Virus record (IMG/VR): IMGVR_UViG_3300006924_000162
Location: 1 to 24,789 of that record
Reading direction: 5' to 3' (one strand)
Length of the DNA: 24,789 nucleotides
From: a virus
Shown here: in pieces, positions 1,861 through 24,789 of the stretch
How the letters are laid out: each line of letters opens with the position of its first letter
Position numbering within the stretch: position 1 is the first letter of the stretch
Position numbers and translations under genes: made by a program
The notes under the pieces: generated by a model
Told to the model about the DNA's origin: nothing
The model's input: the letters and a program-made list of their open reading frames with translations, nothing else
Database searches by the model: none

Positions 1861-2777
1861 TTGATGGAATACCTCAACACCTTTTCGTTGTTGAGACTTT
1901 TTGGTAGTGAATACTTGTCAAGGTCTATATTTCCGATTGGCCACCTGTTCAACATTTTATCAGGGCAGTGCTTACTATGCCACTGATTAAACTCGGTACT
2001 CCGCAATATTTGATTGTAGTGTTTGTCCACATCGATCATAATGTTTGGAGTCATGAATGCATTTCCAGTGATGTCATCATTGGTTGGATCATCGCCATCC
2101 AAGTAACAACACACCAAGTCTTTGCCTAAGATGTCATTCGATAACCAAACGTTAAAGTCTGTTTTCTCCGCTCGGTGGTCAAACATATCAAACTCAGGCC
2201 TTATCCGATGAAAGAATAAGGAGTCATCATCAGAATTAAAATTGGCACTGGTGTATATTATATTGTGGCAAACACCCCTGTATTTGTTTCTAAGAGGCAA
2301 ACTGTCCCAAGAAACAAAAGTCTCCAACAAGTGTACTGACTGATTGATATCATGTACTCTTTCATCCAGCAGAGGATCATCTGATTCATTGTTTTTCAAA
2401 AAACATTGAGTAGTGAATTCTCTGTGCAGGATATTCAAATCCGATTGGCGTATGTCAACCTTTGCGTTCCATGTGTACTTCACTCTAGAAAGAGCTTCAA
2501 AGGCAATAGTCCAATCATACTGTGGTATATTGTCTCTACAATACTCTAGGGCCCGCTCCAATTTCTCTATAATCTTGACAATCCTTTCCCTAGACACCTT
2601 GACATGTCCTTGATATGGTGACCAACTAGAAACTTGAAAGTCTTTACTGAGAACCTTGTGACGTTTTCCTCGGAATTGACTTATCTTTTTCATGTACACG
2701 GACCACTTCTTCGCAAATTCAGTATCTAATACATCTATTACGAATCTAGAAGTGGTTGTGGTGACATCAATCTGCAT
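1857..2777 (-). CDS. Protein of unknown function (306 aa)
   Basis: Not recognised. The ATG at 2775-2777 directly abuts the previous gene's TAA (2778-2780). The protein starts MQIDVTTTTSRFVIDVLDTE and contains a basic, helix-prone segment (about residues 25-100, including GKRHKVLSKDF and RERIVKIIEKLERALEYC). A longer acidic/aromatic C-terminal half follows, with RPEFDMFDHRAEKTDFNVW and LVCCYLDGDDPTNDD. No signal peptide or transmembrane helix is seen. The Asp-rich stretches could bind metal, but no catalytic motif is assignable. It sits between a 71-aa gene and the NUMOD3 gene in the operon that also holds RNase H. Local base composition is more AT-rich than around the nrd genes, hinting at accessory content. 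Confidence 0.75.
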   Translation of the reverse strand: MQIDVTTTTSRFVIDVLDTEFAKKWSVYMKKISQFRGKRHKVLSKDFQVSSWSPYQGHVKVSRERIVKIIEKLERALEYCRDNIPQYDWTIAFEALSRVKYTWNAKVDIRQSDLNILHREFTTQCFLKNNESDDPLLDERVHDINQSVHLLETFVSWDSLPLRNKYRGVCHNIIYTSANFNSDDDSLFFHRIRPEFDMFDHRAEKTDFNVWLSNDILGKDLVCCYLDGDDPTNDDITGNAFMTPNIMIDVDKHYNQILRSTEFNQWHSKHCPDKMLNRWPIGNIDLDKYSLPKSLNNEKVLRYSIK

Positions 2778-2993
2778 TTAAATGCGGGGAACGGTATCTT
2801 TCAGTCTGACCAGCATCTCTAGCTTATCGTCATACTCTGCCGCACGGCTAAGTTCTTCTTCGATTGTGGCCAATATATCTGGATGTTCAGCAACACCAAC
2901 TCCATTCTCCATGAGAATTTTTGCGTTGGTCAAATGTTTTTCTCTCATAGATTCAAACAATGCTTGGAGAGTACGAGTAATTTGTTCTTTCAT
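2778..2993 (-). CDS. Small helical protein of unknown function (71 aa)
   Basis: Starts by ATGA overlap (ATG 2991-2993) with the upstream gene and ends flush against the next gene's start. The sequence (MKEQITRTLQALFESMREKH ... IEEELSRAAEYDDKLEMLVRLKD) is almost entirely amphipathic helix with heptad-like hydrophobic spacing, suggesting a small helical bundle or coiled-coil partner protein. It has no cysteines, zinc site or membrane segment. It lies one gene from RNase H, where T4 itself carries small DNA-binding and transcription cofactors (dsbA, gene 33). This protein does not show the gp33 or DsbA sequence pattern, so no such assignment is made. Confidence 0.65.
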   Translation of the reverse strand: MKEQITRTLQALFESMREKHLTNAKILMENGVGVAEHPDILATIEEELSRAAEYDDKLEMLVRLKDTVPRI

Positions 2994-3487
2994 TTTGATA
3001 CCTTCTTCTTTTTCGGTGTCTTTTTCTTAGTCTTGACAGGTTTGTTGTACCCAGTGATACCCAGAGGTTCCATCAGTTTTTCCAACTTGGGATACAGGGA
3101 CAACAAAACGGCGTCCTTCACCGCAGTGAGCACCTTCGCCTCATTTGCGTGAACACCTTCAAGAATCTGCAACCAGTTCATTTCACGTTTCCAATCTGGC
3201 AATTTGTTCATGTTGCTTGCGGGATCAAAAAACTGTGAGATGCGGCGCCACTCCAACTGAATAGATGTCTCGCCCATACCTTCTGGGATATCTTCCTTGA
3301 GTTTAATATTCTCTGGTTGGCCCTCTGGCAAGTTCCACTCTACCTTTTCGGCACCAACTCCGATGCGTACAAGTGGCACTAGAGTCTGATTAGTACCGGC
3401 CCATTGTTTGAGTCTTGATACCTGTTCATCAACTGACTCACCCTTCAATACCCAATCAAACCCCTCGTCGGTTTGTCTAAATTTCAT
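2990..3487 (-). CDS. Marine T4-like phage conserved protein, possibly DUF6433-like (165 aa)
   Basis: The start MKFRQTDEGFDWVLKG at 3485-3487 follows the RNase H stop by one base, with an AGAGGA ribosome site inside the rnh end. The core (about residues 95-140, DWKREMNWLQILEGVHANEA then AVLLSLYPKLEKLMEPLGITG) matches my memory of a family widespread in T4-like cyanophages (DUF6433), function unknown. The C-terminal 17 residues are a lysine-rich tail (KTKKKTPKKKKVSK), suggesting nucleic-acid contact. No enzymatic motif is seen. Its position directly after rnh suggests a replication-linked or early role, but that is inference. Confidence 0.7.
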   Translation of the reverse strand: MKFRQTDEGFDWVLKGESVDEQVSRLKQWAGTNQTLVPLVRIGVGAEKVEWNLPEGQPENIKLKEDIPEGMGETSIQLEWRRISQFFDPASNMNKLPDWKREMNWLQILEGVHANEAKVLTAVKDAVLLSLYPKLEKLMEPLGITGYNKPVKTKKKTPKKKKVSK

Positions 3488-3488
3488 T

Positions 3489-4373
3489 TCAAAATTCCTC
3501 TGCTTTATCCATCAAACGATGTAAATTAAACTTACTGAAATACTTATGCACATCGCCACGACCTTTATTTTGTTGTAGTTCGTACTGTGCTACGATTTCA
3601 TCTTGAATGTTCTGTGGTGTCTGTGATAAGTCAACCATAGTTCGGTTGCGAATGTATCCCTCCACCATGTCACCAGTAACCCACTCTTCTGGTTTCTGTG
3701 TCTTCCACTCTGCAATGAGAGTTTTGCGAATGGGTCTCTGTCTGTTGCCATTCACAAACACATCATCATCACTGAGAATGTTGGGCACACCATCACCCTT
3801 GTCACCAGCGATGATGTGTTCCATTAGAATTTCCTGTGCCGTAGAAGTGATCTCCACAAACTTTTTGCGGATAGGTGACCACTGTTTGACGTTCTCCCAC
3901 TTCTGCAACTGTTGAAAGTCATGGTCAGCAGAGACGACCAAGAAAGGTTTTGGTTCTTGGAATAATGAGTGTTCGGTTAGATCGTTTGTCTGACTGTAAG
4001 CAGCAAGTGTACCGATCACATCATCTGCCTCTGCACCTGTTACATCAATAACAGGGTAGGGCATAAACTCATCAAGTTCCGACTTCACCTGACCCAGACA
4101 ATCAAAGATAGTGTTCCAATCGTAACCACTGGCCTCTCGCGTTTTTTTGCGGCTTGCTTTGTAGTTTGGGAACACTTCTCTGCGCCAGTACCGGCGATTG
4201 TCACAGGCTATGACAACCTCACCAAACTCCTCACCCCACTTGGTTCGGTAACTGAGTATGGTACTCAAAATCATGTGGCGAATCAGATCAAAATCTACGT
4301 CACTCGTTTTTCTTTTATTCATCTCAGCCATCAGGTTACTGATACTGATCTGATTATAATCAACTAATATCAT
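3489..4373 (-). CDS. rnh: T4-type RNase H / 5'-3' exonuclease (FEN-1 family)
   Basis: Removes RNA primers from lagging-strand fragments with a 5'-nuclease active site. The open frame reaches 4463, but ATG 4371-4373 (MILVDYNQISISNLM) matches the family N-terminus and overlaps the upstream gene by 14 b. The visible length of 294 aa is close to T4 RNase H (305 aa). Metal-ligand acidic residues are present in family order: D5; D58 (ACDNRRYWRREVFPNYKASR, 56-75); E115-D117-D118 (GAEADDVIG); D150 and D152 (VSADHDFQQLQ); D191 and D194 (AGDKGDGVPNI, helix-hairpin-helix region). All look intact, so an active enzyme is expected. It is the second gene after the promoter at 4874-4903, consistent with expression alongside replication. 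Confidence 0.93.
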   Translation of the reverse strand: MILVDYNQISISNLMAEMNKRKTSDVDFDLIRHMILSTILSYRTKWGEEFGEVVIACDNRRYWRREVFPNYKASRKKTREASGYDWNTIFDCLGQVKSELDEFMPYPVIDVTGAEADDVIGTLAAYSQTNDLTEHSLFQEPKPFLVVSADHDFQQLQKWENVKQWSPIRKKFVEITSTAQEILMEHIIAGDKGDGVPNILSDDDVFVNGNRQRPIRKTLIAEWKTQKPEEWVTGDMVEGYIRNRTMVDLSQTPQNIQDEIVAQYELQQNKGRGDVHKYFSKFNLHRLMDKAEEF

Positions 4374-5170: not shown

Positions 5171-6237
5171 ACTTCTTTTCCTTTCATTTCAAAATAAAGA
5201 TGATTAGCAATTTCACGGTGGCATTTTTCGTCTGGATGATATCCGGGCATTTTGCCAACAAAATCTGGGTGGTCTGGATGTAGATACATGCGAGAGAAAA
5301 GTTTAGTAGACATCTCTGGCATCGACGTTACAGACTCCAGTTTATATAACATCTTATCATAAATTCTTCCTTCACGCAAGAGATTATAGTAAGTTTCTTG
5401 TTTAAATGATCCCATGTCGAAAAATTCTTGCGGGTCGGAAAACAAATTCATTATTCTATCAAAATTGCCAGACCTCACCAATCTGCTCACACTGGTGCAT
5501 GTTTCGGCTTCATCTATCACCTTCAATCCAGCCAAAACCCAGTTCCACATTTCTACATTATGAAAAGCATCCCATATATAACACGGAATATTTTTCGATC
5601 TGAACATGTAGACTAGAGATTCTACCAACCTCAACGTATCTAAGGATTGATGAATTGGGGAGTTGAATAAATCATGAGATAATATATCATCCTTCATCAA
5701 ACTAAAGTTCGTAAGACGTTCATCATTGTTATTTCTAAGTTCTCGGAGATCATGACTATTCCAGTTAGAGTTTTCTTCAACCGAACCGAGTCCACACAAA
5801 TCTTGCGTGTCACTGTAAATGCCACCCTTGCTCCATCCAATAAAATCAACACCAACGTGTCCATCGTTATCACACATCACCGCACACGGTCTACTGGGTT
5901 GCCACCTATTAACAAAGTTTTCATTTACAGGCACTTGAAATCTTTCTGGCCCACTCAGTTGAATTACTGCGGCACCACTAAAATTTTTATTATCTGGGTT
6001 ATCAAAATAATCCAGTGTAGTTCTCCACGTTCTCCAGTTGGAACCACCACCCCTAGCAAGATTGACAGGTTCTAAATTTAATTTTTCTGCAAGGACAGCA
6101 GACCATCTGAGTTGTGCTCTTTGCTCTGGATCAACCCACTGATATGGCCGGTTTTTGTCTCCGTCAAAATATCTGGTTTCTTCGGATAACTCTGCGCCCA
6201 GAGTGACAGAACAACCATTTACAAATAGTTTAGTCAT
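5158..6237 (-). CDS. SGNH/GDSL-hydrolase-like protein (359 aa)
   Basis: The N-terminus LFVNGCSVTLGAE (4-16) is block I of SGNH esterase/acetylhydrolase folds (G8-C9-S10, with S10 the candidate nucleophile). LARGGGSNWRT (60-70) supplies the block II glycine and an Asn. PGYHPDEKCHREIANHL near the C-terminus (331-347) resembles block V, usually D-x-H-P with a catalytic His. The expected Asp position is Gly here, so the triad may be incomplete or Asp may come from another position. Known members deacylate carbohydrates or lipids; marine phages carry many uncharacterised relatives. No signal peptide is seen. It overlaps the membrane-protein gene upstream by 8 b. A role in altering host surface sugars or virion glycans is inference. 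Confidence 0.65.
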   Translation of the reverse strand: MTKLFVNGCSVTLGAELSEETRYFDGDKNRPYQWVDPEQRAQLRWSAVLAEKLNLEPVNLARGGGSNWRTWRTTLDYFDNPDNKNFSGAAVIQLSGPERFQVPVNENFVNRWQPSRPCAVMCDNDGHVGVDFIGWSKGGIYSDTQDLCGLGSVEENSNWNSHDLRELRNNNDERLTNFSLMKDDILSHDLFNSPIHQSLDTLRLVESLVYMFRSKNIPCYIWDAFHNVEMWNWVLAGLKVIDEAETCTSVSRLVRSGNFDRIMNLFSDPQEFFDMGSFKQETYYNLLREGRIYDKMLYKLESVTSMPEMSTKLFSRMYLHPDHPDFVGKMPGYHPDEKCHREIANHLYFEMKGKEVWKH

Positions 6238-7153
6238 TGTTTTCCTTGTCTATCAACCATCCCAATTTTGTTCTGAGAGTTTTGTCAAGTCTTCTAAACT
6301 GAGCCAGTTCAGTTTCACTCAGTTCTTCTGTTTCTTCTACTTCTGGTATCACAACCTCTTCGACCACTGTATCATCTATACTGACAGCGGTGATTACCTC
6401 ACCCCGCCTCTGCATCCATGTCATGTTTGATGAGATAACCAGAAGAATAGCGAGAGGATCGAATACCAAAACAATAAGGATAATAATCCAGCGGACAGCT
6501 GCATCAAAATGATCTTGTGCTTCGTCTCCATAAATTAACTCCGCGATATATTTTAGAGGCCCAACTTCCGCCTCAAGAGCCAAGGATTGTTTCTGTATAG
6601 GGATGAGTTGAGTTTGAATTTCTTCGATAGTTGTGTACGCAGTGTCGATCTGAGCGTTGATAGTTCGCCTTTCCTCTGCCTGCCCCTCACGAACCGCGAG
6701 TGACCCCGACGGCCCTCGTATTCTATCGTATTCGATGAGAGTTTGTACGGCACCGTCGAGTTGAGACAATACAGTCTCCGCATCTTCAATAATAACCTGT
6801 TGACGATCAATTCTGCGTTGAAAGTTTTGTATCTGAAGTTCATTGTTGCCACCCGCGCTTACGGTATGTTCAATGTGTGCCTTTGATAAGAACCCAAAGA
6901 TGCCTATACTAGTTATAATAGACAAGACTACAACAGCAACAGTAAAATAAGATTTCAATAAAACAGCGGCGGTGTCCCAGTTTCGGTACAACCAAGATGC
7001 AGTAACCAGTTTCGCCACCTCCAATACCGCACCCATAGTGAGAATGGGAATCGCAGCTGCGGGAAAAATTGCCATCAGTCCTACGATGGAAAACCATCCG
7101 GCGACTGCGGAAACGGATAGTGCTGACAATACTAACAGAGACAAAAATATCAT
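6230..7153 (-). CDS. Four-helix membrane protein with central coiled coil, unknown function (307 aa)
   Basis: The topology is clear from the sequence. Hydrophobic segments lie at about 2-20, 22-50 and 66-89. A long Gln/Glu/Ile-rich coiled-coil region follows at about 103-195 (QNFQRRIDRQQVIIEDAETV and following), then a fourth membrane helix at 222-242 (RWIIILIVLVFDPLAILLVI) and an acidic tail of about 60 residues. The layout resembles a protein family recurring in marine T4-like phages and is broadly like DUF4407-type membrane proteins, but I cannot confirm either. The coiled coil between helices 3 and 4 would lie on one side of the inner membrane, as in membrane-spanning scaffold proteins. 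It starts by ATGA overlap after the sulfotransferase-like gene. Possible roles (lysis timing, membrane remodelling, superinfection exclusion) are inference only. Confidence 0.75.
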   Translation of the reverse strand: MIFLSLLVLSALSVSAVAGWFSIVGLMAIFPAAAIPILTMGAVLEVAKLVTASWLYRNWDTAAVLLKSYFTVAVVVLSIITSIGIFGFLSKAHIEHTVSAGGNNELQIQNFQRRIDRQQVIIEDAETVLSQLDGAVQTLIEYDRIRGPSGSLAVREGQAEERRTINAQIDTAYTTIEEIQTQLIPIQKQSLALEAEVGPLKYIAELIYGDEAQDHFDAAVRWIIILIVLVFDPLAILLVISSNMTWMQRRGEVITAVSIDDTVVEEVVIPEVEETEELSETELAQFRRLDKTLRTKLGWLIDKENND

Positions 7154-7917
7154 TGGAATGTTTTCTTTTCTAATTCTATCAGCGTCATCTCATTCTTTTC
7201 GTCATTACCGTCTTGTACGAAACTGATTTGGAATGGGGAGAGGTCTTCTATGTAGTCTTCAGCCTCGGCCGTAAGATTAAAGTCGGGGGATGGCAACAGA
7301 GGGGAATTGCACTCCATTGACAGGACATCCTCAAAAGAGATTGTGGTGAAGTTTGGGTCTTCATGTGTTCGTTGATGAAACAAATACACCTCCGTCATTC
7401 TTTCCGCGAAATTACGGGCGAGTTTGTTTTTGTCAATATTGTCAGTAGATACTTCTACGGGCGCCTCATCATTTTTTTCCCACTGCCACCTTTGCGACAT
7501 GTTGGCAAGTGCAAACGATCTCCACTGAGAAACCAATTGTCTTCTAATGTAAACTTTTTGATGTTCTACTATATCACAAAGACCATGAACGTGAGGGTAA
7601 CCCTTAGCAATCAGTCTTCTATCAGCATCCTCTATCGTGTCTGCGTTATCCATAAAAAATTCTGGGGGTTGCATACATGCGGCTTCAAATAGATTGAAGT
7701 GACATGAGCTGCCAGCAAATTCTATAGATTGATAAAGGGGGTCTTTGCCTTTTCTAAAAGCCGTACCATAAGCGTCGATGTCAGGATATTTCCCACCAGT
7801 ATCCCAATCCAAGTCCTCAAGACCAGAGTACAACACTGGGTCGGCCTGGCATCTTGCATACTGGTAGTGCCAAGAACCATTTCTCGGTCCACCGAATATA
7901 AAAACATGATCTGTCAT
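7150..7917 (-). CDS. Sulfotransferase-like protein (255 aa)
   Basis: Residues 5-16 (VFIFGGPRNGSW) resemble the 5'-phosphosulfate-binding loop of PAPS-dependent sulfotransferases (GxPRSGS/T). Residues 121-137 (KVYIRRQLVSQWRSFALA) resemble the 3'-phosphate-binding R...S segment, with R125/R126 and S134 as candidates. A late ISFEDVL is also common in phage relatives. The reaction would be sulfate transfer from PAPS to a sugar or other acceptor. The start is ATG 7915-7917 (ATGA overlap); a GTG four codons upstream is less likely. The Trp in place of Thr/Ser after the loop is unusual, so a sulfotransferase-fold protein with another role is possible. It sits in an accessory block with an SGNH-like gene, which would suit surface modification. 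Confidence 0.5.
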   Translation of the reverse strand: MTDHVFIFGGPRNGSWHYQYARCQADPVLYSGLEDLDWDTGGKYPDIDAYGTAFRKGKDPLYQSIEFAGSSCHFNLFEAACMQPPEFFMDNADTIEDADRRLIAKGYPHVHGLCDIVEHQKVYIRRQLVSQWRSFALANMSQRWQWEKNDEAPVEVSTDNIDKNKLARNFAERMTEVYLFHQRTHEDPNFTTISFEDVLSMECNSPLLPSPDFNLTAEAEDYIEDLSPFQISFVQDGNDEKNEMTLIELEKKTFQ

Positions 7918-8261
7918 TTTGGTTTCCACTCTACGGGCGTAAACTCTGACAAGTGACTTCTTCTCAACCTAATATTCAACATGTCGTTGAGACAGTTATC
8001 ATCTTCTCTTTGTTGCCACTGCAAAAGAAATTCTTGCATCTTTGCATGAGATTTTTTCTCATACTCCGCAATAGTTACTTTGGTCAGTTCGCCCTCATAC
8101 TCTTTTACTATTGTGCTACTGCCATAATATTTCTCATACAGATTTTGTGGTTTGCATGAGTATCCTATGTAATATCTTCCGTCTGGAAAATATGTGCAGT
8201 AGACTCTATGTGTCTTCTTTGAGGAGGTATTTTTCTTTCTCTTCTTCGTGGTCATAACCAT
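7914..8261 (-). CDS. GIY-YIG-like nuclease-domain protein (115 aa)
   Basis: After a basic leader (MTTKKRKKNTSSKK), residues 17-50 read THRVYCTYFPDGRYYIGYS followed by a KYYGSST segment. This is the strand-turn-strand pattern of GIY-YIG folds (Y..Y...G.YYIG.S). The remaining 60 residues are helical and include KVTIAEYEKKSHAKMQEFLL and a NIRLRRSHL segment. The catalytic Arg and Glu of classical GIY-YIG enzymes cannot be placed with certainty. Start: ATG 8259-8261 or the ATG two codons later (8253-8255). Either way it overlaps the upstream small gene by about 50 b, unusually long for this window. It may be a small homing-type endonuclease or a domesticated structure-specific nuclease. Confidence 0.55.
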   Translation of the reverse strand: MVMTTKKRKKNTSSKKTHRVYCTYFPDGRYYIGYSCKPQNLYEKYYGSSTIVKEYEGELTKVTIAEYEKKSHAKMQEFLLQWQQREDDNCLNDMLNIRLRRSHLSEFTPVEWKPK

Positions 8262-10249: not shown

Positions 10250-10456
10250 TTAGAAATGTGTGTCCCACTCAGGGGTCATAGAAAATTTGATTAGGTCTTC
10301 GTATCCACCAATATGATAATCACCAATGTATATCTGAGGAACCCGTCCCTCGGATTGATATTCTTCGGTGTACTCTACTTCCATCCCCATTAAAAATCCT
10401 TTAGCGTCATCACAATAGCTACAGTCATCTCTTGAAAGAATTTTTACCTTACTCAT
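10250..10456 (-). CDS. nrdC: Glutaredoxin / thioredoxin-like electron donor for RNR
   Basis: A 68-aa thioredoxin-fold protein with a C12-S-Y-C15 redox motif near the N-terminus (LSRDDCSYCDDAKGFL), a cis-Pro segment (GRVPQIYIG) and the glutathione-site GGYEDL. Its place between nrdA and nrdB makes reduction of the NrdA active-site disulfide the likely job. Compared with T4 NrdC (87 aa) it is compact and lacks the last helix. The ATG (10454-10456) overlaps the QueC-like gene's stop by 8 b. The symbol follows T4 usage; a grx name would be equally valid. Confidence 0.87.
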   Translation of the reverse strand: MSKVKILSRDDCSYCDDAKGFLMGMEVEYTEEYQSEGRVPQIYIGDYHIGGYEDLIKFSMTPEWDTHF

Positions 10457-11078
10457 TGCCGGTGTCCTCTTTGTTTATTTGTTTGAAACCCCATTCCCTT
10501 TCTTTACACCACCAACATTCACCACACCGACCTCTATTCAATTCCGTACAACTGTGAGTAATAGGCATAATCTCATCCGCGATCCCAAGTGTAAAGCCCC
10601 AACGTATAGTTTGGTCTTTGGTCATATTTGCGAATGGTTGTCCTACAAACTCCTTGTGTTTTTCTTCCGGTTCCCATCGGTCATTGGGTAGAGGATATCC
10701 CTCTGGCAACATGTCACGTTGATTCGGGGGATACTTGTTCGCACCGTTCAACAGGTAGTCGGCATATCCCTTTTCAAAAATTTCATATGCGCCACTTGTG
10801 ACGTAATCTGAGGGATTGTCTGAGCTGATCTGTCCTACGAGTGTTGTTTTGATTGTTGGTATTTTCAATCGCTGACAAGACCATTCCAATACTTTGTTTG
10901 CGTAGTGTTCTGCACCGTCCAACTTAGGGACTGTGAAGGGGTTACAAACTTGGTTTCGCGCAAGACACACAGATTTGGCAACATACCACAATACTGCGCT
11001 GTCCCATCCACCGGATATCACAACAGCGATCTTTTTATTTATCGGGATCATTTTTTCTAAAGTGTAAAACATTCCCAT
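10449..11078 (-). CDS. QueC-like PP-loop ATPase (7-cyano-7-deazaguanine synthase family, 209 aa)
   Basis: The PP-loop SGGWDS (22-27, VVISGGWDSAVLW) defines an N-type ATP pyrophosphatase. The C-terminal cysteines C177, C185, C188 and C191 (SCTELNRGRCGECWWCKERE) match the QueC zinc site. QueC turns 7-carboxy-7-deazaguanine into preQ0 with ATP and ammonia; in phages preQ0 can feed 7-deazaguanine DNA modification that blocks restriction. No queD, queE, folE or DNA transglycosylase is in this window, so the pathway is unproven. The middle part (NPSDYVTSGAYEIFEKGYADY) is not obviously QueC-like, and a different amidation or thiolation role is possible. Start: ATG 11076-11078 shares its A with the nrdA TAA; ATG 11070-11072 is an alternative. 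It sits inside the RNR cluster between nrdA and glutaredoxin. Confidence 0.7.
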   Translation of the reverse strand: MGMFYTLEKMIPINKKIAVVISGGWDSAVLWYVAKSVCLARNQVCNPFTVPKLDGAEHYANKVLEWSCQRLKIPTIKTTLVGQISSDNPSDYVTSGAYEIFEKGYADYLLNGANKYPPNQRDMLPEGYPLPNDRWEPEEKHKEFVGQPFANMTKDQTIRWGFTLGIADEIMPITHSCTELNRGRCGECWWCKEREWGFKQINKEDTGNE

Positions 11079-12877
11079 TATCCTTCGCAGGCAAGACAAG
11101 AATCTTCATCAATAAGAGACTGCATATCTATCTCTTTGATGACCTCTCTTTCGATCCTCTTTGATACTCTGTCTGCCTTACCTAGTTTCTCTGATCGGCA
11201 GTAGTACATAGTCTTCAATCCACGTTTCCACGCAAGAAAGTGGACAGCGTGTAGATACTTGATGTTTACATCGGGTCTGAAGAATACGTTCAATGACTGC
11301 GCCTGATCGATAAAAGACTGTCTGTCTGCGGCGTGTTCGATTACCCACCGTTGATCGATTTCCATTGCGGTCTTGAAGATGTCCTTCTCCCAATCATCAA
11401 GAAAACTTAGATGTTGTACTGAACCATCATTGGCGATTATCGACGACCAAGTTTCGTCATAATCGATCTTCGGATTCTCTTCAATTTTACTTTTAATGAG
11501 GACATCCAAATGCTTATTTTTGTTGAGATACGCACCACTAAGCGTGTCCTGGCGATATGCGTTAGCCCTAAAAGGTTCAATAGACGGTGAAGTGTTACCC
11601 ATGATAATACTACTACTAGCATTGGGAGCGATAGCCATAATGTGACTAAATCTTCTCCCTGTGCCTGCTGCGTCAGGCGCTTCACCTCGTTCTTCACCAA
11701 GTTCCAAGTTTGCGTCATTTAAACGACTCCTGATTAATTTAAACATTCTTAGATTAGCACCCTTCGCCATTGCATTTTCCCAAGGCAATCCTTTCTTTTG
11801 CAAATATGCGTGAAAACCTAGAGCACCAATACCAATACTTCTTTCTCTAATTGCAGAAAACTTGGCCCTCTTCACTTGATCTGGGGCGTTGTCAATAAAG
11901 TATTGCAGTACGTTGTCCAACATCTCTGCAACATCTTTCAAGAAATTACTGTCCTTTGACCATGCGTCATAGTTTTCCAGATTGACGGAAGAGAGACAAC
12001 ACACGGCAGTACGTTCTTCGTTAGTCGGAAGAATGATTTCAGAACACAAATTTGATTGATGAATCTTCAGTCCCAAGTCCTTCTGGAATTCTGGAAGATT
12101 TCTATTACTGGTATCAATGAAGTGAAGATATGGTTCACCCGTCTCCATGCGTAGTTCCAGAATCTTCTGCCACAGTTCCTTGGCGGACACCGTGTCGCGA
12201 ATTGCTCCACTATGGGGGTCAGTAAGGTTCCAACCATCATCGGCGTCAGGGTCCGCCATGCACCGCTCTACGAGTTCCATGAACCTGTCGCTGATGTTGA
12301 TGCCATGATGTAAATTCAAACATCTCCAGTTTTGGTCTCCTGTTGGTTTACGCATCTCCAAGAACACTACAACATCTGGGTGTGAGATGTCCAAGTATGT
12401 GGCATAGGAACCACGGCGAGTCCGTCCTTGTCTGTACGCCAGACAAGAGGCGTCATATGTCTTGAGGTGAGGCATAACACCGACCGACTTATCGTCACTG
12501 GCGCGGATACCGAACCCGATACCGACACCACCACCTAACATAGACAACCAGTTTGTTTCCGAAAGATTTTCAACAAGACCTTCGGCGGTGTCGTTGATGT
12601 AATTTAGAAAACAAGAAATAGGCATACCACGTTTCGATCTACCGTAAGATAGAATCGGGGTTGAGTATGACAACCAATGTTTACTGGAATACTCGTACAA
12701 TCGCTGAGCGTGTTCTGGATTAGAACCAAACGCCTTGCTGACGAAAGCAAATCTTTGTTGCGGAGTCGTTTCCTCATCCGTCATGTAACTTTCTTTCAGT
12801 CTTTGCAGACCCAACTTGTCAAATAAATCATCACGCGAGGTATCAATCTGAATACCCAGATATTCTTGTTTGGCCAT
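11078..12877 (-). CDS. nrdA: Class Ia ribonucleotide reductase, large (catalytic) subunit
   Basis: Reduces ribonucleoside diphosphates to deoxy forms. Key residues are present: C89 (PISCFLN, disulfide partner), N276-x-C278-x-E280 (NLCSEI, thiyl-radical Cys and substrate Glu/Asn), C293 (AVCCLSS), the Tyr-Tyr radical relay (MYYCRSEK) and the C-terminal redox pair C594/C597 (SCLACEG). At 599 aa it is much shorter than E. coli NrdA (761 aa). The N-terminus starts near the catalytic barrel, so the ATP-cone that gives dATP feedback inhibition is absent, as in cyanophage NrdA. The ATG lies 4 b after the thyX stop. It shares TAATG with the QueC-like gene. It forms one operon with thyX, glutaredoxin and nrdB. 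Confidence 0.95.
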   Translation of the reverse strand: MAKQEYLGIQIDTSRDDLFDKLGLQRLKESYMTDEETTPQQRFAFVSKAFGSNPEHAQRLYEYSSKHWLSYSTPILSYGRSKRGMPISCFLNYINDTAEGLVENLSETNWLSMLGGGVGIGFGIRASDDKSVGVMPHLKTYDASCLAYRQGRTRRGSYATYLDISHPDVVVFLEMRKPTGDQNWRCLNLHHGINISDRFMELVERCMADPDADDGWNLTDPHSGAIRDTVSAKELWQKILELRMETGEPYLHFIDTSNRNLPEFQKDLGLKIHQSNLCSEIILPTNEERTAVCCLSSVNLENYDAWSKDSNFLKDVAEMLDNVLQYFIDNAPDQVKRAKFSAIRERSIGIGALGFHAYLQKKGLPWENAMAKGANLRMFKLIRSRLNDANLELGEERGEAPDAAGTGRRFSHIMAIAPNASSSIIMGNTSPSIEPFRANAYRQDTLSGAYLNKNKHLDVLIKSKIEENPKIDYDETWSSIIANDGSVQHLSFLDDWEKDIFKTAMEIDQRWVIEHAADRQSFIDQAQSLNVFFRPDVNIKYLHAVHFLAWKRGLKTMYYCRSEKLGKADRVSKRIEREVIKEIDMQSLIDEDSCLACEG

Positions 12878-18195: not shown

Positions 18196-18203
18196 TATTT
18201 ATA
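18196..18203 (-). promoter_or_regulatory. T4-type late promoter TATAAATA containing the upstream stop codon
   Basis: A perfect TATAAATA on the minus strand, 28 b before the ATG of the 133-aa virion gene, leaving room for a leader of about 23 nt with AAGGAG. The TAA at 18199-18201 within it is the stop of the 649-aa gene (GTA-TAA-ATA). T4-type late promoters need gp55-like sigma; no such gene is in the window. Confidence 0.8.
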
Positions 18204-20148
18204 CGTGCTTCTTAAAATGATCGTGGCTCTTGTGGGCAGACGTTTGCATTGCTTGTTTGTCAGCGGGTTTGCTGTTCATGTACTTATTCAAGAACTTTGC
18301 AGCGTGTCCTTTACTGATCTTGTGCGTCTTCCCATCTTGGAATTGAACCTCTTTACCAACGGTAATTGCTTTTCGCATCTGAGGTACAATGTGTTCGATT
18401 TCTTTTGCGTTTGATGCGTCACTGACCTTTGCGGGTTTGTCCGACTTAGTAGGAGCAAGACCTTTCTTATCATCCGCATCATAGTCTCTCTTTGCATCCG
18501 CAGCGGCATCTTCAGTGATACCCTTCTTCTTCATGAGTCTTGCCTTGGCAGCACCAGCATCTTTATTTGAGATACGCATCCCACCAGTGTTGTGACTTGC
18601 CTTGTCCTTTGACATAGCACCAGAAGACTTTGCATAATCATTCTTCATGGTGTAGTTTTCATTCTTTGCGTTGTGTGCGGCATCTACACTGTTGAAGAAT
18701 TTCTTTTTCTCTTCTGGGGACATAGAACCAAGAGACTTACCTGATTTCTTCAGCATCGCCTGAAACTTTGCCTTGAATTCCATTTCGATCAACTCATCCA
18801 ACTCTTCATCGGAGTAGTCATCGAACATACCTTCGTTTGCAGTGCGGAGAGCCTTCTGAGCGCCTGGGTGATTAGAAAGACCTTTCTTAATCTTTTCCAT
18901 CTTCTTTGCGGCACCCGTCATGTCACCACCCTTGTGACGGGGGTCATTTGCAATACCCTTCGCCATCTTAACTTGTTTACCAGTGATATACTCTTTGAGT
19001 TGATATCCCTTGTCATCGCATTCGGAACAACCTTTACCCTTACACTCTGGACAATCAACCTTTTTAACTTCGTCAAGGCCCGGATCAGTTTCCCTCTCAG
19101 TCTTTGAAACTTTGCGAGAAAGTCTCTCGGCGGCCTTCTTGGCGCGTTGTCGAGAATCTTCTGCGTCTGAGCCAGGATTCTTAACTTTGTACTCGTCGAG
19201 TTTTGATTTCTTAGCGGCGGCAAACGGATTGTTCATGTCCACGGTAATTTCCTCTTCGGTCTCTTCTTTGGAGAGTTTAGCAGCGATGGCCATCTCTCTC
19301 TTCTTTTCTTTAGACTTGCCCTTAAATTGGGGTGCATCAGACTTTTGGAAGTCCTTGATGACTTCACCCATTTCCATGTCTTCAACCTTTTCTTCTAGGT
19401 CCGTTTCTTCGTTAGTAGCAGGAACCTTGGCAGTAGATAAACCATACTTCTTGTAAACGGATGAATATCTCTTCTTACTTGCAAGACGGTCACCCTTCAC
19501 ACGTTTTTTAATCTTATCTACATCCTGAGTACCAACCGCCTTTTCACGATCAGTCTCGTTCTTTTGTTGGTAACTTGCCAACATTTTAGATGATACTTCA
19601 TCAACCTGTTCTACATCTTCACTAACTGATTTCCAACTTCCACCGGCTTTTTTATACATCTTGGCAGCCCAACCATTGGCATAAGCAGAAGGATACACAT
19701 CGAATTTTGCCTTCGCCTGTGACTTGTACTTTGACCACAACTTCGGGTTTGTTGGGACATTCTTCTCTTCAAGAGTCTGAATGTCCAACAACAGTTCTTC
19801 CCATTCATTCAAGGTTACATCATCACTCTCTTCGGCCGTTTCGATCTCACTCTCTTCGGTCTGATAGCGATTCTTTTGAGTGTGTTGTCGTGCTTTCTGG
19901 AATACTGTATCGTCACCAAGTATGATATACATCATTTGGTCAAGAACACCACTAACAGCATCTCTTTCTTGCGGAGTACCCACTTTACCAGATTTCATTT
20001 TTTCAAGACCACGTTTTAACAGTGGCAGTTTTGCAACTGGCAACATACCCTGTCGAACCAGCATATCAAGTCTTCTTGACATATCAGCTTCTAATAGGGT
20101 AGATTCTCCAGACTGTAATATGTCACGGATGTTTCTTTCTACCGGCAT
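18199..20148 (-). CDS. Large mosaic Lys/Glu-rich protein with DUF5872-like and zinc-knuckle modules (649 aa)
   Basis: The frame extends to 20181, but ATG 20146-20148 (MPVERNIRDILQ) has GGAG eight bases upstream and fits the late promoter at 20184-20191. Modules in order: a conserved helical N-terminus (1-90); acidic linker; NPKLWSKYKSQAKAKFDVYP...NGWAAKMYKKAGGSW (134-172), a DUF5872-like block; long charged linkers; C366-x-x-C369...C374-x-x-C377 (CPECKGKGCSEC), like half a DnaJ zinc finger; GIANDPRHKGGDMTGAAKKM...LSNHPGAQKAL (398-434), a module seen in other marine phage proteins; two EF-like acidic helices; and a C-terminal VGKEVQFQDGKTHKISKGHA module (597-616). Known role: none. Late expression suggests a virion-internal or assembly protein. 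Confidence 0.8.
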   Translation of the reverse strand: MPVERNIRDILQSGESTLLEADMSRRLDMLVRQGMLPVAKLPLLKRGLEKMKSGKVGTPQERDAVSGVLDQMMYIILGDDTVFQKARQHTQKNRYQTEESEIETAEESDDVTLNEWEELLLDIQTLEEKNVPTNPKLWSKYKSQAKAKFDVYPSAYANGWAAKMYKKAGGSWKSVSEDVEQVDEVSSKMLASYQQKNETDREKAVGTQDVDKIKKRVKGDRLASKKRYSSVYKKYGLSTAKVPATNEETDLEEKVEDMEMGEVIKDFQKSDAPQFKGKSKEKKREMAIAAKLSKEETEEEITVDMNNPFAAAKKSKLDEYKVKNPGSDAEDSRQRAKKAAERLSRKVSKTERETDPGLDEVKKVDCPECKGKGCSECDDKGYQLKEYITGKQVKMAKGIANDPRHKGGDMTGAAKKMEKIKKGLSNHPGAQKALRTANEGMFDDYSDEELDELIEMEFKAKFQAMLKKSGKSLGSMSPEEKKKFFNSVDAAHNAKNENYTMKNDYAKSSGAMSKDKASHNTGGMRISNKDAGAAKARLMKKKGITEDAAADAKRDYDADDKKGLAPTKSDKPAKVSDASNAKEIEHIVPQMRKAITVGKEVQFQDGKTHKISKGHAAKFLNKYMNSKPADKQAMQTSAHKSHDHFKKHV

Positions 20149-20183: not shown

Positions 20184-20191
20184 TATTTATA
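20184..20191 (-). promoter_or_regulatory. T4-type late promoter TATAAATA containing the radical SAM stop codon
   Basis: A perfect TATAAATA on the minus strand. The TAA at 20187-20189 is the stop of the radical SAM gene (TTA-TAA-ATA). The expected transcription start near 20178 gives a leader of about 30 nt with GGAG before ATG 20148 of the 649-aa gene. Confidence 0.8.
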
Positions 20192-21791
20192 AAGATAACT
20201 TATTCTGTTTGTACTCTTCTATAGCTGATTTTACCATTTCTTCGGGTGGATTCATCATACTAGGCAATTCTCTGAAATTTTTCAACATATCGGCCTTACT
20301 AAACCCCACTCCTTGCCAGTTTGATTGGTTAAAAATGGGTACACCCCTATCCCAATATCTATCATGACCAAATAACATGTTCTGCACACCAATATATGCA
20401 CTGACCGCATCATAGTGTTCGTTTTTCCACATATATGTCAAATGGTGCCAGTGTGGACTATTCAAATCTGGTTCAAGGAGTTTGATTCTTCTCTTGAAAT
20501 AATCATCGACATTTGGATCGGCGTAGATGTGATCTAGTCTGTCGCCTACTGGTTCGATTTCCATTGGTTGCGGGGTCTTGTACCACTTGTCTTTCTTAGA
20601 GGTAAGATCACTGGGTCGCGTCATTCCATTGTCTCTCATAATATGTAGAGGGAACATCGATACTGCCTGAGACTGCCAATTATCATCCAACCACTTGAAG
20701 GTCCAGTCTAGAGTTTCTGGAGTCTCGTACGGCAACCCCCAAATCAAACTTATCTCCCCCCGATAAAACCCATTCTCTTTTAAGAAATATTCTTTAGCTT
20801 TTAGAATGCCATCTAGAATCTTCTTTGGGTCACCACCCTTTCCCATTGATTTGGCACTTGCATGATTTGTTGATTCGATCCCATAGAGATGACTATTGAA
20901 TCTCATTCTAGCAAGTTCTTCTAGGTCACCCTTGCGTTGAGTCATCAAGTCTGCGCGAATGTACCCAGTAAAGTTTGGTTTAAAATCACATGACTGAACA
21001 ACATCACCATACTTTTTAATTTTTGGAATGTAGTCATTGAAAGTATCATCAGTAATGATGTACTCTGTTGTTCCCCAAAGGTCATAGTTTTCTTTTATGT
21101 TTCTCTCAAAACAATCTTGTGAACGAGTATAGTCACCCTTCACACCCAGAATCGGGAAGTTGCAATAGGAACAGGCGAATCGACATCCTCTAGAAGTTTC
21201 CATAGACAAAACTTCGTAGGGTTTAATAAAGTCTCTTTTCTCGTATCGGATTGGCAATTCAGACCAAGGGTACGCATGATACTTTGAGTTTTCCCAACAA
21301 TCTACTACTGGAAATGTAGGTCCGCCTTCAAAGGGCGTAAATTGTTTTACTTCTGGATTACCCTGTATTATGGCCTTCATGCCGAGTTCACCATAACCAA
21401 TACAGTAATAATCGATGTTTGGTATTTTCATAAGTGACCAGATGTCCTGACTTCCAGCACAAGTGGTCACATTGGGATAATTGGTTTTAACGTATTTGAA
21501 TAGATTAACAATGTTCGGGGCTGCAAGAAAGAAGAGTCCACCCACACCCACCATTTTAGTGTCTGGTCCGACCCTGCTATCTACAATTTCAACGAGTTCT
21601 TCATACCGCCAAGAAAACATAAAATCGACAACTTCTACGTTAAAGTCGAATTCATCTCTTAGGTATGTGGCAATTCGGTAGGTGCCAGAAGTTCGACTTC
21701 TGGTTTCGTAACTAGGTTCTTCTGTTGCAGCCTGTACGCCGTGTGAATACGAACCTAGTCCCGTAAATAATAGTACGTCAACGTAATCCAT
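20187..21791 (-). CDS. B12-type radical SAM protein of unknown substrate (534 aa)
   Basis: C203-x3-C207-x2-C210 (SRGCRFACSYCNFP) is the [4Fe-4S]/SAM motif. Residues about 36-135 (RIATYLRDEFDFNVEVVDFM, MVGVGGLFFLAAPNIVNLFK, IDYYCIGYGE) look like the Rossmann-type cobalamin-binding domain that precedes the radical SAM barrel in class B methyltransferases and relatives. The cobalamin-ligating DxHxxG is not seen. Later barrel blocks include NFTGYIRADLMTQ, LYGIESTNHASAKSMGKGGD and ISLIWGLPYETPETLDW. The C-terminal 150 residues are Trp/His-rich and unfamiliar. Reaction unknown: methylation or another radical change of a peptide, nucleic acid or small molecule is possible. Start ATG 21789-21791 with GGAG five bases upstream. 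It is embedded among late virion genes, which is striking. Confidence 0.85.
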   Translation of the reverse strand: MDYVDVLLFTGLGSYSHGVQAATEEPSYETRSRTSGTYRIATYLRDEFDFNVEVVDFMFSWRYEELVEIVDSRVGPDTKMVGVGGLFFLAAPNIVNLFKYVKTNYPNVTTCAGSQDIWSLMKIPNIDYYCIGYGELGMKAIIQGNPEVKQFTPFEGGPTFPVVDCWENSKYHAYPWSELPIRYEKRDFIKPYEVLSMETSRGCRFACSYCNFPILGVKGDYTRSQDCFERNIKENYDLWGTTEYIITDDTFNDYIPKIKKYGDVVQSCDFKPNFTGYIRADLMTQRKGDLEELARMRFNSHLYGIESTNHASAKSMGKGGDPKKILDGILKAKEYFLKENGFYRGEISLIWGLPYETPETLDWTFKWLDDNWQSQAVSMFPLHIMRDNGMTRPSDLTSKKDKWYKTPQPMEIEPVGDRLDHIYADPNVDDYFKRRIKLLEPDLNSPHWHHLTYMWKNEHYDAVSAYIGVQNMLFGHDRYWDRGVPIFNQSNWQGVGFSKADMLKNFRELPSMMNPPEEMVKSAIEEYKQNKLSL

Positions 21792-21804: not shown

Positions 21805-22053
21805 TCAATATATTTTTTTCAAATCAAATCCAACTGGATTTACAACTCTTATTTCATGTCTCTTTTTATCAGTACCAATAAAAATAATGTGGTTTTGTTT
21901 TAGTTTTAAGATTTTTTTAGCATGATAAGTTTTTGGACTAAACGTCTCTATGCGAGTACCATCAGGCAGAACAGTAGTTTCGCCTGGGTAGTAAACAGTA
22001 AGTTGATATTCTTCCTTCAACCACTCTTTAATTTTTTCTATTAACCATCTCAT
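21805..22053 (-). CDS. Small conserved phage protein, probably SH3-like beta fold (82 aa)
   Basis: An amphipathic N-terminal helix (MRWLIEKIKEWLKEEYQ) leads to a beta-rich domain with VLPDGTRIETFSPKTYHAKK, LKLKQNHIIFIGTDKKRHEI and a terminal NPVGFDLKKIY. The PDGT...SPKTYxAKK...HIIFxxxDGxR..I..V.PVGxDxKKIY arrangement matches small proteins I recall from marine T4-like phages; function unknown. The ATG (22051-22053) has no ribosome site and lies only six bases after the TATAAATA at 22060-22067, so its late mRNA would be essentially leaderless. Otherwise it is translated by read-through from the SGNH gene. Confidence 0.7.
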   Translation of the reverse strand: MRWLIEKIKEWLKEEYQLTVYYPGETTVLPDGTRIETFSPKTYHAKKILKLKQNHIIFIGTDKKRHEIRVVNPVGFDLKKIY

Positions 22054-22059
22054 AAACAG

Positions 22060-22067
22060 TATTTATA
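22060..22067 (-). promoter_or_regulatory. T4-type late promoter TATAAATA containing the SGNH gene stop codon
   Basis: A perfect TATAAATA on the minus strand; its TAA (22063-22065) ends the SGNH-like gene (CTA-TAA-ATA). The expected start is within one or two bases of the ATG at 22053, so either the 82-aa gene is leaderless or the promoter mainly serves the radical SAM gene at 21791 with a long leader. Confidence 0.6.
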
Positions 22068-23019
22068 GTTTTTCTTTGATTAGTTTTATGATTATTTCTG
22101 CCCACTTTGCATTTGTTTCTTCGCCTGGGTGTATGAGGTCTCTGGCCATAGAAACCCCATCAAAAGATTCATCTCCACGTTGAGCACAGTGTTTCCAATA
22201 ATGATAAGCTTTAAACTCTCTGTCAAAGTCCTTTGAATAGTCAGCCAAAACGAAAGGGATATCCAGTTCTTTTGCGATATCTCGCAACACCATGATGTTC
22301 TTGGTTGTCTGAATAAGGTTATTCATGTCATCCGTGACACATTGATACTCCATTGACATTACATACTCTTCTGTAATTTTCCTGTATTTTGAAATCTGTT
22401 GAGAAGAGGTGGTTACAATCTGAGATCCGTTAAAGTAGTTCCACCTTCTTGGTGGTGGTGTAAAAACAACCATCGCTTTTGGTTTCTTGACAGTGTGTTT
22501 GAGTAAGAACAAAGCATGAATTACGCTTGCATCAAGTCCAACGCCAGGGATACCGAAATTAAAATTTGCAAGACCCAGTTCTTTTGATACTATCTCAGTG
22601 AAGGTATGTTCCTTGTCTAGACCGATACCGAATGTAAAACTGCATCCATAGAAAATAATTCCGTCTTCATCATAACCGTGGTCTATTCGGTATCCTTGGT
22701 CGTTGAGGAGGTACTGGACTGAAACGGCGTTTTGCGACCCGTCAGTTCTTATCCAGTTAAACTGTTCCAGACACTTTCGGGTCTGGGGGTCATTCTTGTG
22801 TTCGTTAAAGGTTTCTTGTGTGTCTGGGTCAATCCAAAACAAATTATGTGTTCTGTTTTCTTTCCACGAGTCTATTGAATCACATAAAGCAAGATTGATA
22901 CCACCGAGGCACTTTCGGATTGTTGGCAGATTTTCTTGTGGGAGACACACACTGTTTTCCCAAGAAAGACCTTTACCCAAGTACTGTCTTGTGTACTTCA
23001 GAATATCATCAATTGTCAT
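22063..23019 (-). CDS. SGNH/GDSL-hydrolase-like protein (318 aa)
   Basis: Residues 122-131 (IFYGCSFTFG) are block I of the SGNH fold with S127 as candidate nucleophile. NFGIPGVGLD (154-163) supplies the block II Gly. PKAMVVFTPPPRRWNYFNG lies near block III. DLIHPGEETNAKWAEIII (294-311) gives the D294-x-x-H297 catalytic pair of block V. Unlike the second SGNH-like gene in the window, this triad looks complete. The N-terminal 110 residues (TIDDILKYTRQYLGKGLSWE and following) are extra and unfamiliar. The family includes carbohydrate and lipid esterases. In the late region it could deacetylate host surface polysaccharide or modify virion glycans; that is inference. It follows the DUF6321-like gene by 15 b with no obvious ribosome site. 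Confidence 0.7.
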   Translation of the reverse strand: MTIDDILKYTRQYLGKGLSWENSVCLPQENLPTIRKCLGGINLALCDSIDSWKENRTHNLFWIDPDTQETFNEHKNDPQTRKCLEQFNWIRTDGSQNAVSVQYLLNDQGYRIDHGYDEDGIIFYGCSFTFGIGLDKEHTFTEIVSKELGLANFNFGIPGVGLDASVIHALFLLKHTVKKPKAMVVFTPPPRRWNYFNGSQIVTTSSQQISKYRKITEEYVMSMEYQCVTDDMNNLIQTTKNIMVLRDIAKELDIPFVLADYSKDFDREFKAYHYWKHCAQRGDESFDGVSMARDLIHPGEETNAKWAEIIIKLIKEKL

Positions 23020-23034
23020 AACGAAATTAAACTC

Positions 23035-23301
23035 TTAGCAGTTCCATCTTCTTCTTGCAGCCTTACCTCTTTCACCCGTCCAACCGCGTGATCGGGCACA
23101 GAAGGATTTTCTTCTATTAGCCGCTTTGCTACCTTTCTTTAGTTTACTAGGAGGCGTAGTAACAGCAGTCTGTAGATTGCCGCCGGTTCTGCGGTTCTCT
23201 GCATCTACGCCCTTCTGTGTCAGACCAGCACCTTTATCAGTGGGCCGTTTGTGTCCAGACTTAATACCTTCTTCTGTGACAAACTCCAAAAAAGTCTTCA
23301 T
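23035..23301 (-). CDS. DUF6321-like small basic Cys/Trp protein (88 aa)
   Basis: After a short leader, residues about 26-88 hold GAGLTQKGVDAENRRTGGNL, TAVTTPPSKLKKGSKAANRR, KSFCARSRGWTGERGKAARR and the terminal RRWNC. This is the LTxKGxxxxNRxTGxNLxxxVTxxxxKxGSKAAxRRKSFCAR...RRWxC pattern of the DUF6321 family, shared between marine phages and giant viruses, function unknown. The highly basic charge and two cysteines suggest nucleic-acid binding, perhaps inside the virion. It starts by ATGA overlap with the large mosaic gene and so is translated together with it. Confidence 0.78.
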   Translation of the reverse strand: MKTFLEFVTEEGIKSGHKRPTDKGAGLTQKGVDAENRRTGGNLQTAVTTPPSKLKKGSKAANRRKSFCARSRGWTGERGKAARRRWNC

Positions 23302-24789
23302 TTCTTCTTCACCTTAAACTTCTTAGCCTTCTGTTTAGACGCCTGTGACTTCGCCTGTGCTGGATTATATTTCTTAGCCTTCTGTGGTTTACTTCTTCTT
23401 GAAGTAAGTCTCTTCAGTTCGTTCTTTCTGATTATCGGGACCATTCTCTGTGCGAGTCTAGAAACCAGACCACCAAAACGTTTGGCCATCGCTTCAATTC
23501 TTGCCTTCTCTGCGGGTGGCAAAGACTTGATATCTCTACCTCTCGCAATGCGACCTTTAATCATGTTTCTTGCACCGCGAGATGCCCTTCTCTTAATTCT
23601 TGCGGGGTCGGCGGCTCTTCTGGATGCCCTCATACGAGCAACCTTCAGTTTTTGTTTGTTACGACGAGCGTTGAATCGACGTTTCATTCTACCTTGAATT
23701 GACAGATTTTCAAGGATATCAATGTTATCGTGAATATCCTCATCTTCCTCTGCCGCAGCATCTAATTCTTCAACTTCTTCTTCGTCATACATTCCAAGAT
23801 CAATTAGGTCATCGAAATTCATGCCATCAATCTGAGTTTCCATCTCTTCGATTTCTCTCTCACTGAATACATGGTGGTCCATTTCCAAAACATCATAATC
23901 GGCATCTTCTTCACAACCACAGTGTTCTTTCACTGCTTGCTTACCGTATGTGATGCAGGGGTCTTGACCGCAACCGCAGTTCTCTTGTACCTTTGCCTTG
24001 TAGTGGTACTTATTAGTAGTCTTGTTTTTCTTTGTGGTTTCTCCTGGCTCGCCAGGTGTTACTGCCTTCAAATACGCAGTTCCTTCTGGTCTACCCCACT
24101 CGTACTTACTAATCTGCACATCTTCATACATACCAGCAAGAGTTCTGGGATCAACCTTATCCGAAACCTGTCCTGCAACCTTTGCGGCATAGTACTCAAC
24201 ACCATGTCGGAGTTTGCCACCACCCTCTTTCTTCTTGCGGTCTACAATTTGTTTCAGAAGTTTGTGTGCGTGTTTGTACTGAGTTTTATAGACAGTCTTT
24301 GCCAGTGCGGGTTGCATCCACTGCGGAGTCTCTGATACTGGGACGCAATTCGGAACAACCCTATTGCCTTTCTTTTTCAGACCTTTCTCTTTATATCCAT
24401 TCCAACACTTTTCATCAATCTTCTCTTCTGATTTTACTGTTTTCGCTGATGTCTGTTGAAATTTTTTCTTCATGTCCTCATAGTACTTCAACTTGGCTTC
24501 CAAGTCCATACCATGTTTGTCTTTAAGTCTTTTTGCAAAACGATCTTGTGCTGACATTGATGCCTCTTTGACATCGGTCTTTACCATAACTGGTTTGCCG
24601 CCCTTACCACTACGATCTGCAACTGGGTCTTTCCTTCTTTTTCTTCTAGCAGATGTTGCCCTGTCATCTTTGGACATGCTGTGAGCCTTTGATCTGGGCA
24701 TACACTTGGGTTTGCCTTCTCCAGGCTCTCTAGCACAGTCACCTTTGATCTTTCCGTCTGTACCTACACGGACCCAATCACCTTTTGGC
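23298..24789 (-). CDS. Large mosaic Lys/Arg-rich protein, partial (N-terminus beyond right window edge)
   Basis: The frame is open to position 24789: 29 further codons lie upstream of the first internal ATG (24699-24701), and they complete a recognisable module. That module is DWVRVGTDGKIKGDCA, then PKCMPRSKAHSMSKDDRATS, the W..I..DGKI.G.C...CLPK.KA..L....R...A pattern of phage basic proteins, so the true start is outside. Next come KCWNGYKEKGLKKKGNRVVP (Cys/Lys module), WMQPALAKTVYKTQYKHAHK, a GRPEGTAYL segment and two Cys clusters (ENCGCGQDPC, EHCGCEED). An acidic stretch follows, then a very basic helical block (MKRRFNARRNKQKLKVARMR to VSRLAQRMVPIIRKNELKRL) and a Lys tail. It is probably a virion-internal or DNA-associated protein, inferred from charge and late context. 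496 residues are visible. Confidence 0.8.
   Translation of the reverse strand, partial: PKGDWVRVGTDGKIKGDCAREPGEGKPKCMPRSKAHSMSKDDRATSARRKRRKDPVADRSGKGGKPVMVKTDVKEASMSAQDRFAKRLKDKHGMDLEAKLKYYEDMKKKFQQTSAKTVKSEEKIDEKCWNGYKEKGLKKKGNRVVPNCVPVSETPQWMQPALAKTVYKTQYKHAHKLLKQIVDRKKKEGGGKLRHGVEYYAAKVAGQVSDKVDPRTLAGMYEDVQISKYEWGRPEGTAYLKAVTPGEPGETTKKNKTTNKYHYKAKVQENCGCGQDPCITYGKQAVKEHCGCEEDADYDVLEMDHHVFSEREIEEMETQIDGMNFDDLIDLGMYDEEEVEELDAAAEEDEDIHDNIDILENLSIQGRMKRRFNARRNKQKLKVARMRASRRAADPARIKRRASRGARNMIKGRIARGRDIKSLPPAEKARIEAMAKRFGGLVSRLAQRMVPIIRKNELKRLTSRRSKPQKAKKYNPAQAKSQASKQKAKKFKVKKK

Follow-up and report, generated by a model that had tools for sequence, protein, structure and literature searches.

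A late-positioned and apparently mostly viral family of B12-type radical SAM enzymes in T4-like phages

Radical SAM arrays and the enzyme beside them

Campylobacter phages CP220 and CPt10 encode 11 and 12 radical SAM proteins (PMC2853527), the T4-like ocean genome TARA_ERS488813_N000010 encodes 12 along with Fe-S assembly genes (PMC5332604), and pelagimyophages carry radical SAM cassettes within a host-recognition cluster (PMC7029224). The portions of these reports available to us give no tested function for the arrays and describe no B12-type family in any of these phages; nor did any Campylobacter phage record in INPHARED match the family described here. Radical SAM arrays in T4-like phages are already known; a late viral B12-type family appears to be undescribed in open-access PMC text. 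We report on one member of this family, encoded at 20187..21791 on the minus strand of a 24,789-nucleotide viral stretch (IMG/VR record IMGVR_UViG_3300006924_000162, hereafter the window). Its phage, which is marine, resembles the systems above in being T4-like, in the many radical SAM genes of its relatives and in their accessory modules.

The number of radical SAM domains is 7-9 in each near-full-length relative of the window phage with arrays, reaches 15 in more distant phages and is only 2-3 in others. The arrays contain SPASM-type radical SAM, 2OG-oxygenase-like, carbamoyltransferase-like, desaturase-like and epimerase-like genes, all assigned by eye. At L107 and L108-L109 (G001:134901-154000, G002:40000-79000) each array holds at least five SPASM-type radical SAM proteins as well as 2OG-oxygenase-, methyltransferase-, carbamoyltransferase-, desaturase-, epimerase- and GDSL-like genes, and has the look of a biosynthetic or surface-modification island. 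Contigs of up to 331 kb (L049-L059, L062, L071-L073) bear dense clusters that combine up to 15 radical SAM domains, numerous 2OG-oxygenase-like proteins and a gene of amidinotransferase type, reminiscent of the islands of Campylobacter phage CP220. IscU-like Fe-S scaffold genes are also present in this phage group, at L111:3869-4288, close to gp32 and a family copy, and at L063:7889-8266.

The richness of the arrays in these genomes, their contents and the host-recognition setting of the pelagimyophage cassettes (PMC7029224) are consistent with the enzyme being one piece of a radical SAM arsenal whose target in the infected cell is a surface glycan, a sugar nucleotide or a lipid, for example in a late receptor change. 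An SGNH-hydrolase-like gene adjoining the enzyme (c8, 318 aa; 22063..23019, minus strand; GCSFT, GIPG and DLIHP blocks by eye, no family match) points the same way. Against such a role, the window-type enzyme lies outside the arrays and both family copies sit in late or replication/virion modules, while the NCBIfam models for HpnJ, HpnR and other lipid or sugar subgroups come nowhere near their cut-offs in the family. We regard this role as possible, if rather unlikely.

Motifs, predicted fold and distribution

The ORF is intact, begins with ATG and encodes 534 aa with a sole CxxxCxxC motif (CRFACSYC, residues 203-210; 21162..21185, minus strand) that would bind the [4Fe-4S] cluster and SAM. 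Pfam PF04055 (Radical_SAM) matched it with an E-value of 1.6e-15 and 58.1 bits against a cut-off of 29.5, and Pfam, the structure model and structural matches together place the radical SAM core at about residues 190-390 (20622..21224, minus strand). In an alignment of 43 family members (A2), which served for the conservation counts and the structure model, 40 positions are invariant, so the ORF is not a chance one. The only cysteines conserved family-wide are those of columns 203, 207 and 210 (43/43); among the 43 members there are neither the three further conserved N-terminal cysteines of the MiaB/RimO second-cluster type nor a conserved C-terminal column of the SPASM/twitch auxiliary-cluster type, which speaks against a second cluster of either kind. 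The protein closes with a conserved C-terminal helix ending in YKxxKL (20189..20242, minus strand; alignment and model), whose Y527 and K531 are invariant in all 43. The idea that this tail is a common recruitment tag of array enzymes was rejected, as it is specific to this family.

Structure prediction gave an AlphaFold model built on the 43 members with a pLDDT of 92.5 and a pTM of 0.91 that lies closest to cobalamin-type enzymes. VIA-align Z scores were 19.9 for AprD4, 19.8 for MgmA, 19.6 for OxsB, 19.0 for TsrM, 16.8 for TokK and 17-18 for MiaB/RimO. AprD4 and MiaB/RimO have much of the fold in common, yet are not cobalamin methylases, so the fold is no proof of cobalamin use or methyl transfer; OxsB, too, is not a methyltransferase. 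DSSP of the model delimits an N-terminal Rossmann domain at about residues 1-165 (21297..21791, minus strand) with strands at 6-10, 52-55, 80-84, 109-114 and 128-131, trailed by a hairpin of short strands at 149-151 and 160-164. This is the class 1 order, in which a five-stranded Rossmann domain is followed by a beta-hairpin and then by the radical SAM core (PMC13331322). The predicted protein thereby resembles the class 1 enzymes OxsB, TsrM and TokK, with which it also has in common a core with one CxxxCxxC and a helical C-terminus (Z 15-20), but it is only about 12-15% identical to them, belongs to a nearly virus-only family and is probably expressed late in a phage. The loop that follows strand 3 has Phe at position 87 in 37 of the 43 members; by sequence order, as distinct from superposition, this position would equate with the residue that lies under the cobalt in the corresponding loop, which is Trp76 in TokK, Arg69 in TsrM and Asn186 in OxsB (PMC13331322).

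The Pfam B12-binding profile matched residues 39-141 with 19.7 bits (E 8e-4), under its cut-off of 32.1 bits, a score that reflects a limit of the profile and is no proof that the domain is missing. DxHxxG, the mark of histidine-on cobalamin proteins, is absent from the window protein. Class 1 enzymes hold cobalamin base-off, without a histidine ligand (PMC13331322), so this absence is expected and uninformative. Taken together, the Pfam results, the motif and the predicted class 1 fold bear out the preliminary description of a B12-type radical SAM enzyme with CxxxCxxC, a cobalamin-domain-like N-terminus and no DxHxxG. We infer that the enzyme uses cobalamin, as its modelled structure suggests, and that it transfers methyl groups. 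AprD4 as top structural match and the sub-threshold B12-binding score would also suit a cobalamin-independent AprD4-type radical SAM enzyme, a dehydratase or one of other chemistry. AprD4, however, is tied with MgmA and OxsB, both cobalamin enzymes, and nothing resembling an AprD3 partner was identified next to the gene, where the neighbours are without Pfam match; we consider an AprD4-type enzyme improbable.

Among NCBIfam models the best match was the PhpK family of P-methyltransferases (TIGR04479; E 1.6e-15), which matches all 43 members; on the window protein it aligns only with residues 180-369, over the radical SAM core, at 56.4 bits against a cut-off of 600. MgmA, the methyl-coenzyme M reductase glutamine methylase (9ccb), ranked first among PDB sequences in a profile comparison (E 0.00095) in addition to its likeness in fold, but the window protein scores 21.1 bits against the cut-off of 360 for the MgmA family (TIGR04014). 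On these profile scores, with the core matched and the window protein far under the cut-offs, the enzyme is outside every curated B12-radical-SAM subgroup. The preliminary description had set close kinship to a characterised metabolic subgroup against its own proposal; with 56 bits against 600 at best, such kinship is not seen. A PADLOC search for known defence systems gave a single weak match to a candidate model (39 bits), and a role as a known defence system was rejected.

Motif and alignment scans of IMG/VR yielded 262 confirmed family loci, of which 80 were kept. Searching the 50,697 phage records of INPHARED with the window protein (tblastn) found no relative at E 1e-5 and noise only at E 10; a distant family member gave one weak fecal-phage match. 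Across 84,980 prokaryote species, a scan with a narrow alignment found no family locus and one with a wide alignment found seven. Of these seven, a single locus from a Pseudomonadales MAG is close (44%); it nests within the viral tree (support 100/99), which makes virus-to-cell transfer the simpler reading. Going by these searches the family is overwhelmingly viral, a result to be read as enrichment and not as a census, the viral and prokaryote collections being unequal in size and make-up. The two top Foldseek matches in BFVD, radical SAM proteins of uncultured Caudovirales, fit a viral family. A 349-kb bacterial MAG contig (L101) has a distant member amid oxygenase-like and desaturase-like genes that resemble the phage arrays. 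One family copy on a 144-kb record (L064:6662-8273) is split by a frameshift into 399 and 148 aa, either as a pseudogene or through assembly error, and is intact in the close relatives L065 and L067.

Late promoters and gene neighbourhood

The window contains three copies of the T4-type late promoter TATAAATA, where 0.62 would be expected, each on the coding (minus) strand and at a gene junction. The first, at the junction of c8 with an 82-aa gene (22060..22067), precedes the 82-aa ORF and the enzyme and is found only here and in L001/L003. The second (20184..20191) overlaps the enzyme's stop codon ahead of c16 and is conserved, including in phages that lack the enzyme, and the third (18196..18203) lies at the end of c16, at its junction with the next gene. 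Over 14 window-type loci, some of them near relatives so that the counts are not independent, 54 of 56 copies of TATAAATA sit 6-60 bp ahead of an ORF; such zones cover 6.9% of the DNA. In the same loci NATAAATA falls 90 times on the coding strand and never on the opposite one.

Every relative locus that contains the start of c5 has a late promoter ahead of it, and in window-type loci c16 is preceded by another, at or just past the stop codon of the enzyme gene; the enzyme thus belongs to a late unit starting at c5. Late regulation, as the preliminary description proposed, is consistent with the promoters at conserved junctions in 14 relatives. Expression with early genes, which it had named as contrary evidence, is not what the promoters heading the unit suggest. 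The late link gains strength from a further family member placed after gp32, which in 3/4 near-full-length genomes has a late promoter to itself. Late transcription of the enzyme gene itself is probable from these sequence signals.

In the late unit the enzyme gene lies between the 82-aa ORF and the large late protein c16. The 82-aa ORF (family c18; 21805..22053, minus strand) is directly upstream of the enzyme in every window-type locus checked, and is also common in T4-like contigs without it. We rejected c18 as a dedicated partner or substrate on grounds of specificity, 51 of 80 c18 loci having no family member in the stretch examined (some stretches being short). Its fold gave no Pfam or PDB match worth using, and it represents a small conserved family (A3) of 80-aa proteins of T4-like phages that appears in several genomic settings. 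On the other side, c16 (18199..20148, minus strand; MPVERNIRDIL...LLEA, ATG at 20148) borders the empty site in relatives.

Beyond c8 lie the DUF6321 protein c22 (23035..23301, minus strand), whose relatives begin with the T4 capsid-targeting-like MKTFLEFLGE, and the C-terminal part of the P-loop protein c5 (23298..24789, minus strand), cut by the window end. Capsid-targeting-like N-termini are found in c5, c14 and c22 (MDKTFKDFLPLEEG, MKRFSTFLTED and MKTFLEFLGEE). In L031 these three late proteins (c5, 5636-7945; c14, 2703-3959; c22, 7945-8226) are candidates for head packaging and injection; the P-loop of c5 is of zeta-toxin/AAA type and c14 is a DUF6267 protein. The preliminary description spoke of structural-type flanks, which holds in part: on the upstream side relatives have lysozyme, lipoprotein-like genes and proteins with capsid-targeting-like N-termini, and at about 4 kb downstream of the enzyme the window passes to primase, thyX and nrdA. 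Between nrdA and nrdB is a 216-aa ORF (10449-11099, minus strand) with a Pfam match to QueC (1.7e-9) over its final third, residues 152-208; it is possibly a 7-deazaguanine-type or an unrelated PP-loop enzyme. A cyanophage host is not supported: although the primase is nearest to those of cyanophages, psbA is absent from 13 phage records.

The late promoters and the neighbours c5, c14 and c22 are consistent with methylation of a virion or packaged protein, the reading favoured in the preliminary description, as are a family copy among structural-looking genes in another lineage and the fact that MgmA, a relative in fold, acts on a protein. The enzyme's own N-terminus, MDYVDVLLFTG, is strand 1 of the predicted fold and not capsid-targeting-like, which counts against this reading, as does the accessory nature of the gene beside a little-changed c5 and c16. 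We put it forward tentatively.

An accessory copy and its possible substrates

In blocks with c5 and c18, the enzyme comes next in 26, and c16 comes next without the enzyme, at the same junction, in 16 syntenic blocks; the window-type copy at the c18-c16 junction is accessory. L119, whose site is empty, carries ahead of c16 the stretch TTTATAAATATATTGAAACAACAAATTT, matching the enzyme-bearing L117, so the point of gain or loss of the enzyme lies between c18 and the promoter of c16. Compared across phages with and without the enzyme, the proteins c5 and c16 have 70-91% identity, which argues weakly against these two as obligate substrates, an argument that does not extend to other proteins of the virion. 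This pattern of presence and absence fits a small-molecule or surface role about equally well.

Near-full-length genomes G001 and G002 (165 kb) have exactly two family members each, and G020 (161 kb) and G021 (137 kb), which lack a copy at the c18-c16 site, have one each. In 4/4 near-full-length relatives a family copy is directly downstream of gp32 (named by eye), with a baseplate-type module adjoining, and in 3/4 NATAAATA provides a late promoter 25-39 bp ahead of it. The window-type copy is additional to this conserved late copy. G010, of another lineage, has an independent duplicate flanked by gp4-like and baseplate-like genes, and in the largest marine sub-lineage a copy lies between uvsW-like and gp55/gp47-like genes (all names by eye). 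A 147-kb record, G024, has no member, so the family is common but not universal. The idea that the extra copies seen in different lineages form a single orthologous clade was rejected by the tree; they are independent duplications.

The placement of a whole sub-lineage in a replication block and of the core copy next to gp32 could suggest a nucleic acid substrate, whether tRNA, rRNA or phage DNA, in the manner of the similarly folded MiaB, which like RimO is within about 3 Z of the top matches. Such an activity is not favoured by the single conserved cysteine set, by a Pfam search of the window protein that found no TRAM domain or by methylthiotransferase models, which match few family members, and those weakly; we think it improbable.

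Our preferred reading, which we hold with some confidence, is that of a class 1 cobalamin-type radical SAM methylase, transcribed late and acting on something made or remodelled late. A [4Fe-4S] cluster on CxxxCxxC would cleave SAM to give the 5'-deoxyadenosyl radical, and cobalamin, held base-off on the N-terminal Rossmann domain with no histidine ligand, would act as methyl carrier in the methylation of an unreactive carbon (or phosphorus) of the substrate. Late transcription would start at the conserved promoter ahead of c5 and read through into the enzyme gene, with an additional start in the window species at the promoter just upstream of the 82-aa ORF and the enzyme. As to the substrate of this methylase, we lean slightly and tentatively towards a phage-made protein over a surface glycan or lipid, itself a rather doubtful candidate; a substrate of some other kind seems unlikely, and a nucleic acid more unlikely still.

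A bolder proposal, which we consider distinctly doubtful, is that these are virus-evolved late cobalamin radical SAM methylases that C-methylate virion proteins, the core copy being the one after gp32 and the exchangeable one sitting in the c18-c16 slot. If this holds, radical methylation of virion proteins would, as far as we know, be seen in a phage system for the first time. Phage pairs with and without the gene at one junction offer a natural direct comparison by which the role of the enzyme can be tested.

Cobalamin radical SAM enzymes are costly and oxygen-sensitive, and their usual role is in cell metabolism or natural-product synthesis. Here they form what appears to be a nearly all-viral family, kept at conserved late positions and often in two copies per phage. 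Should the enzyme mark virions, this would represent a new type of phage protein modification; should it mark the host surface, a new tool of late host remodelling.
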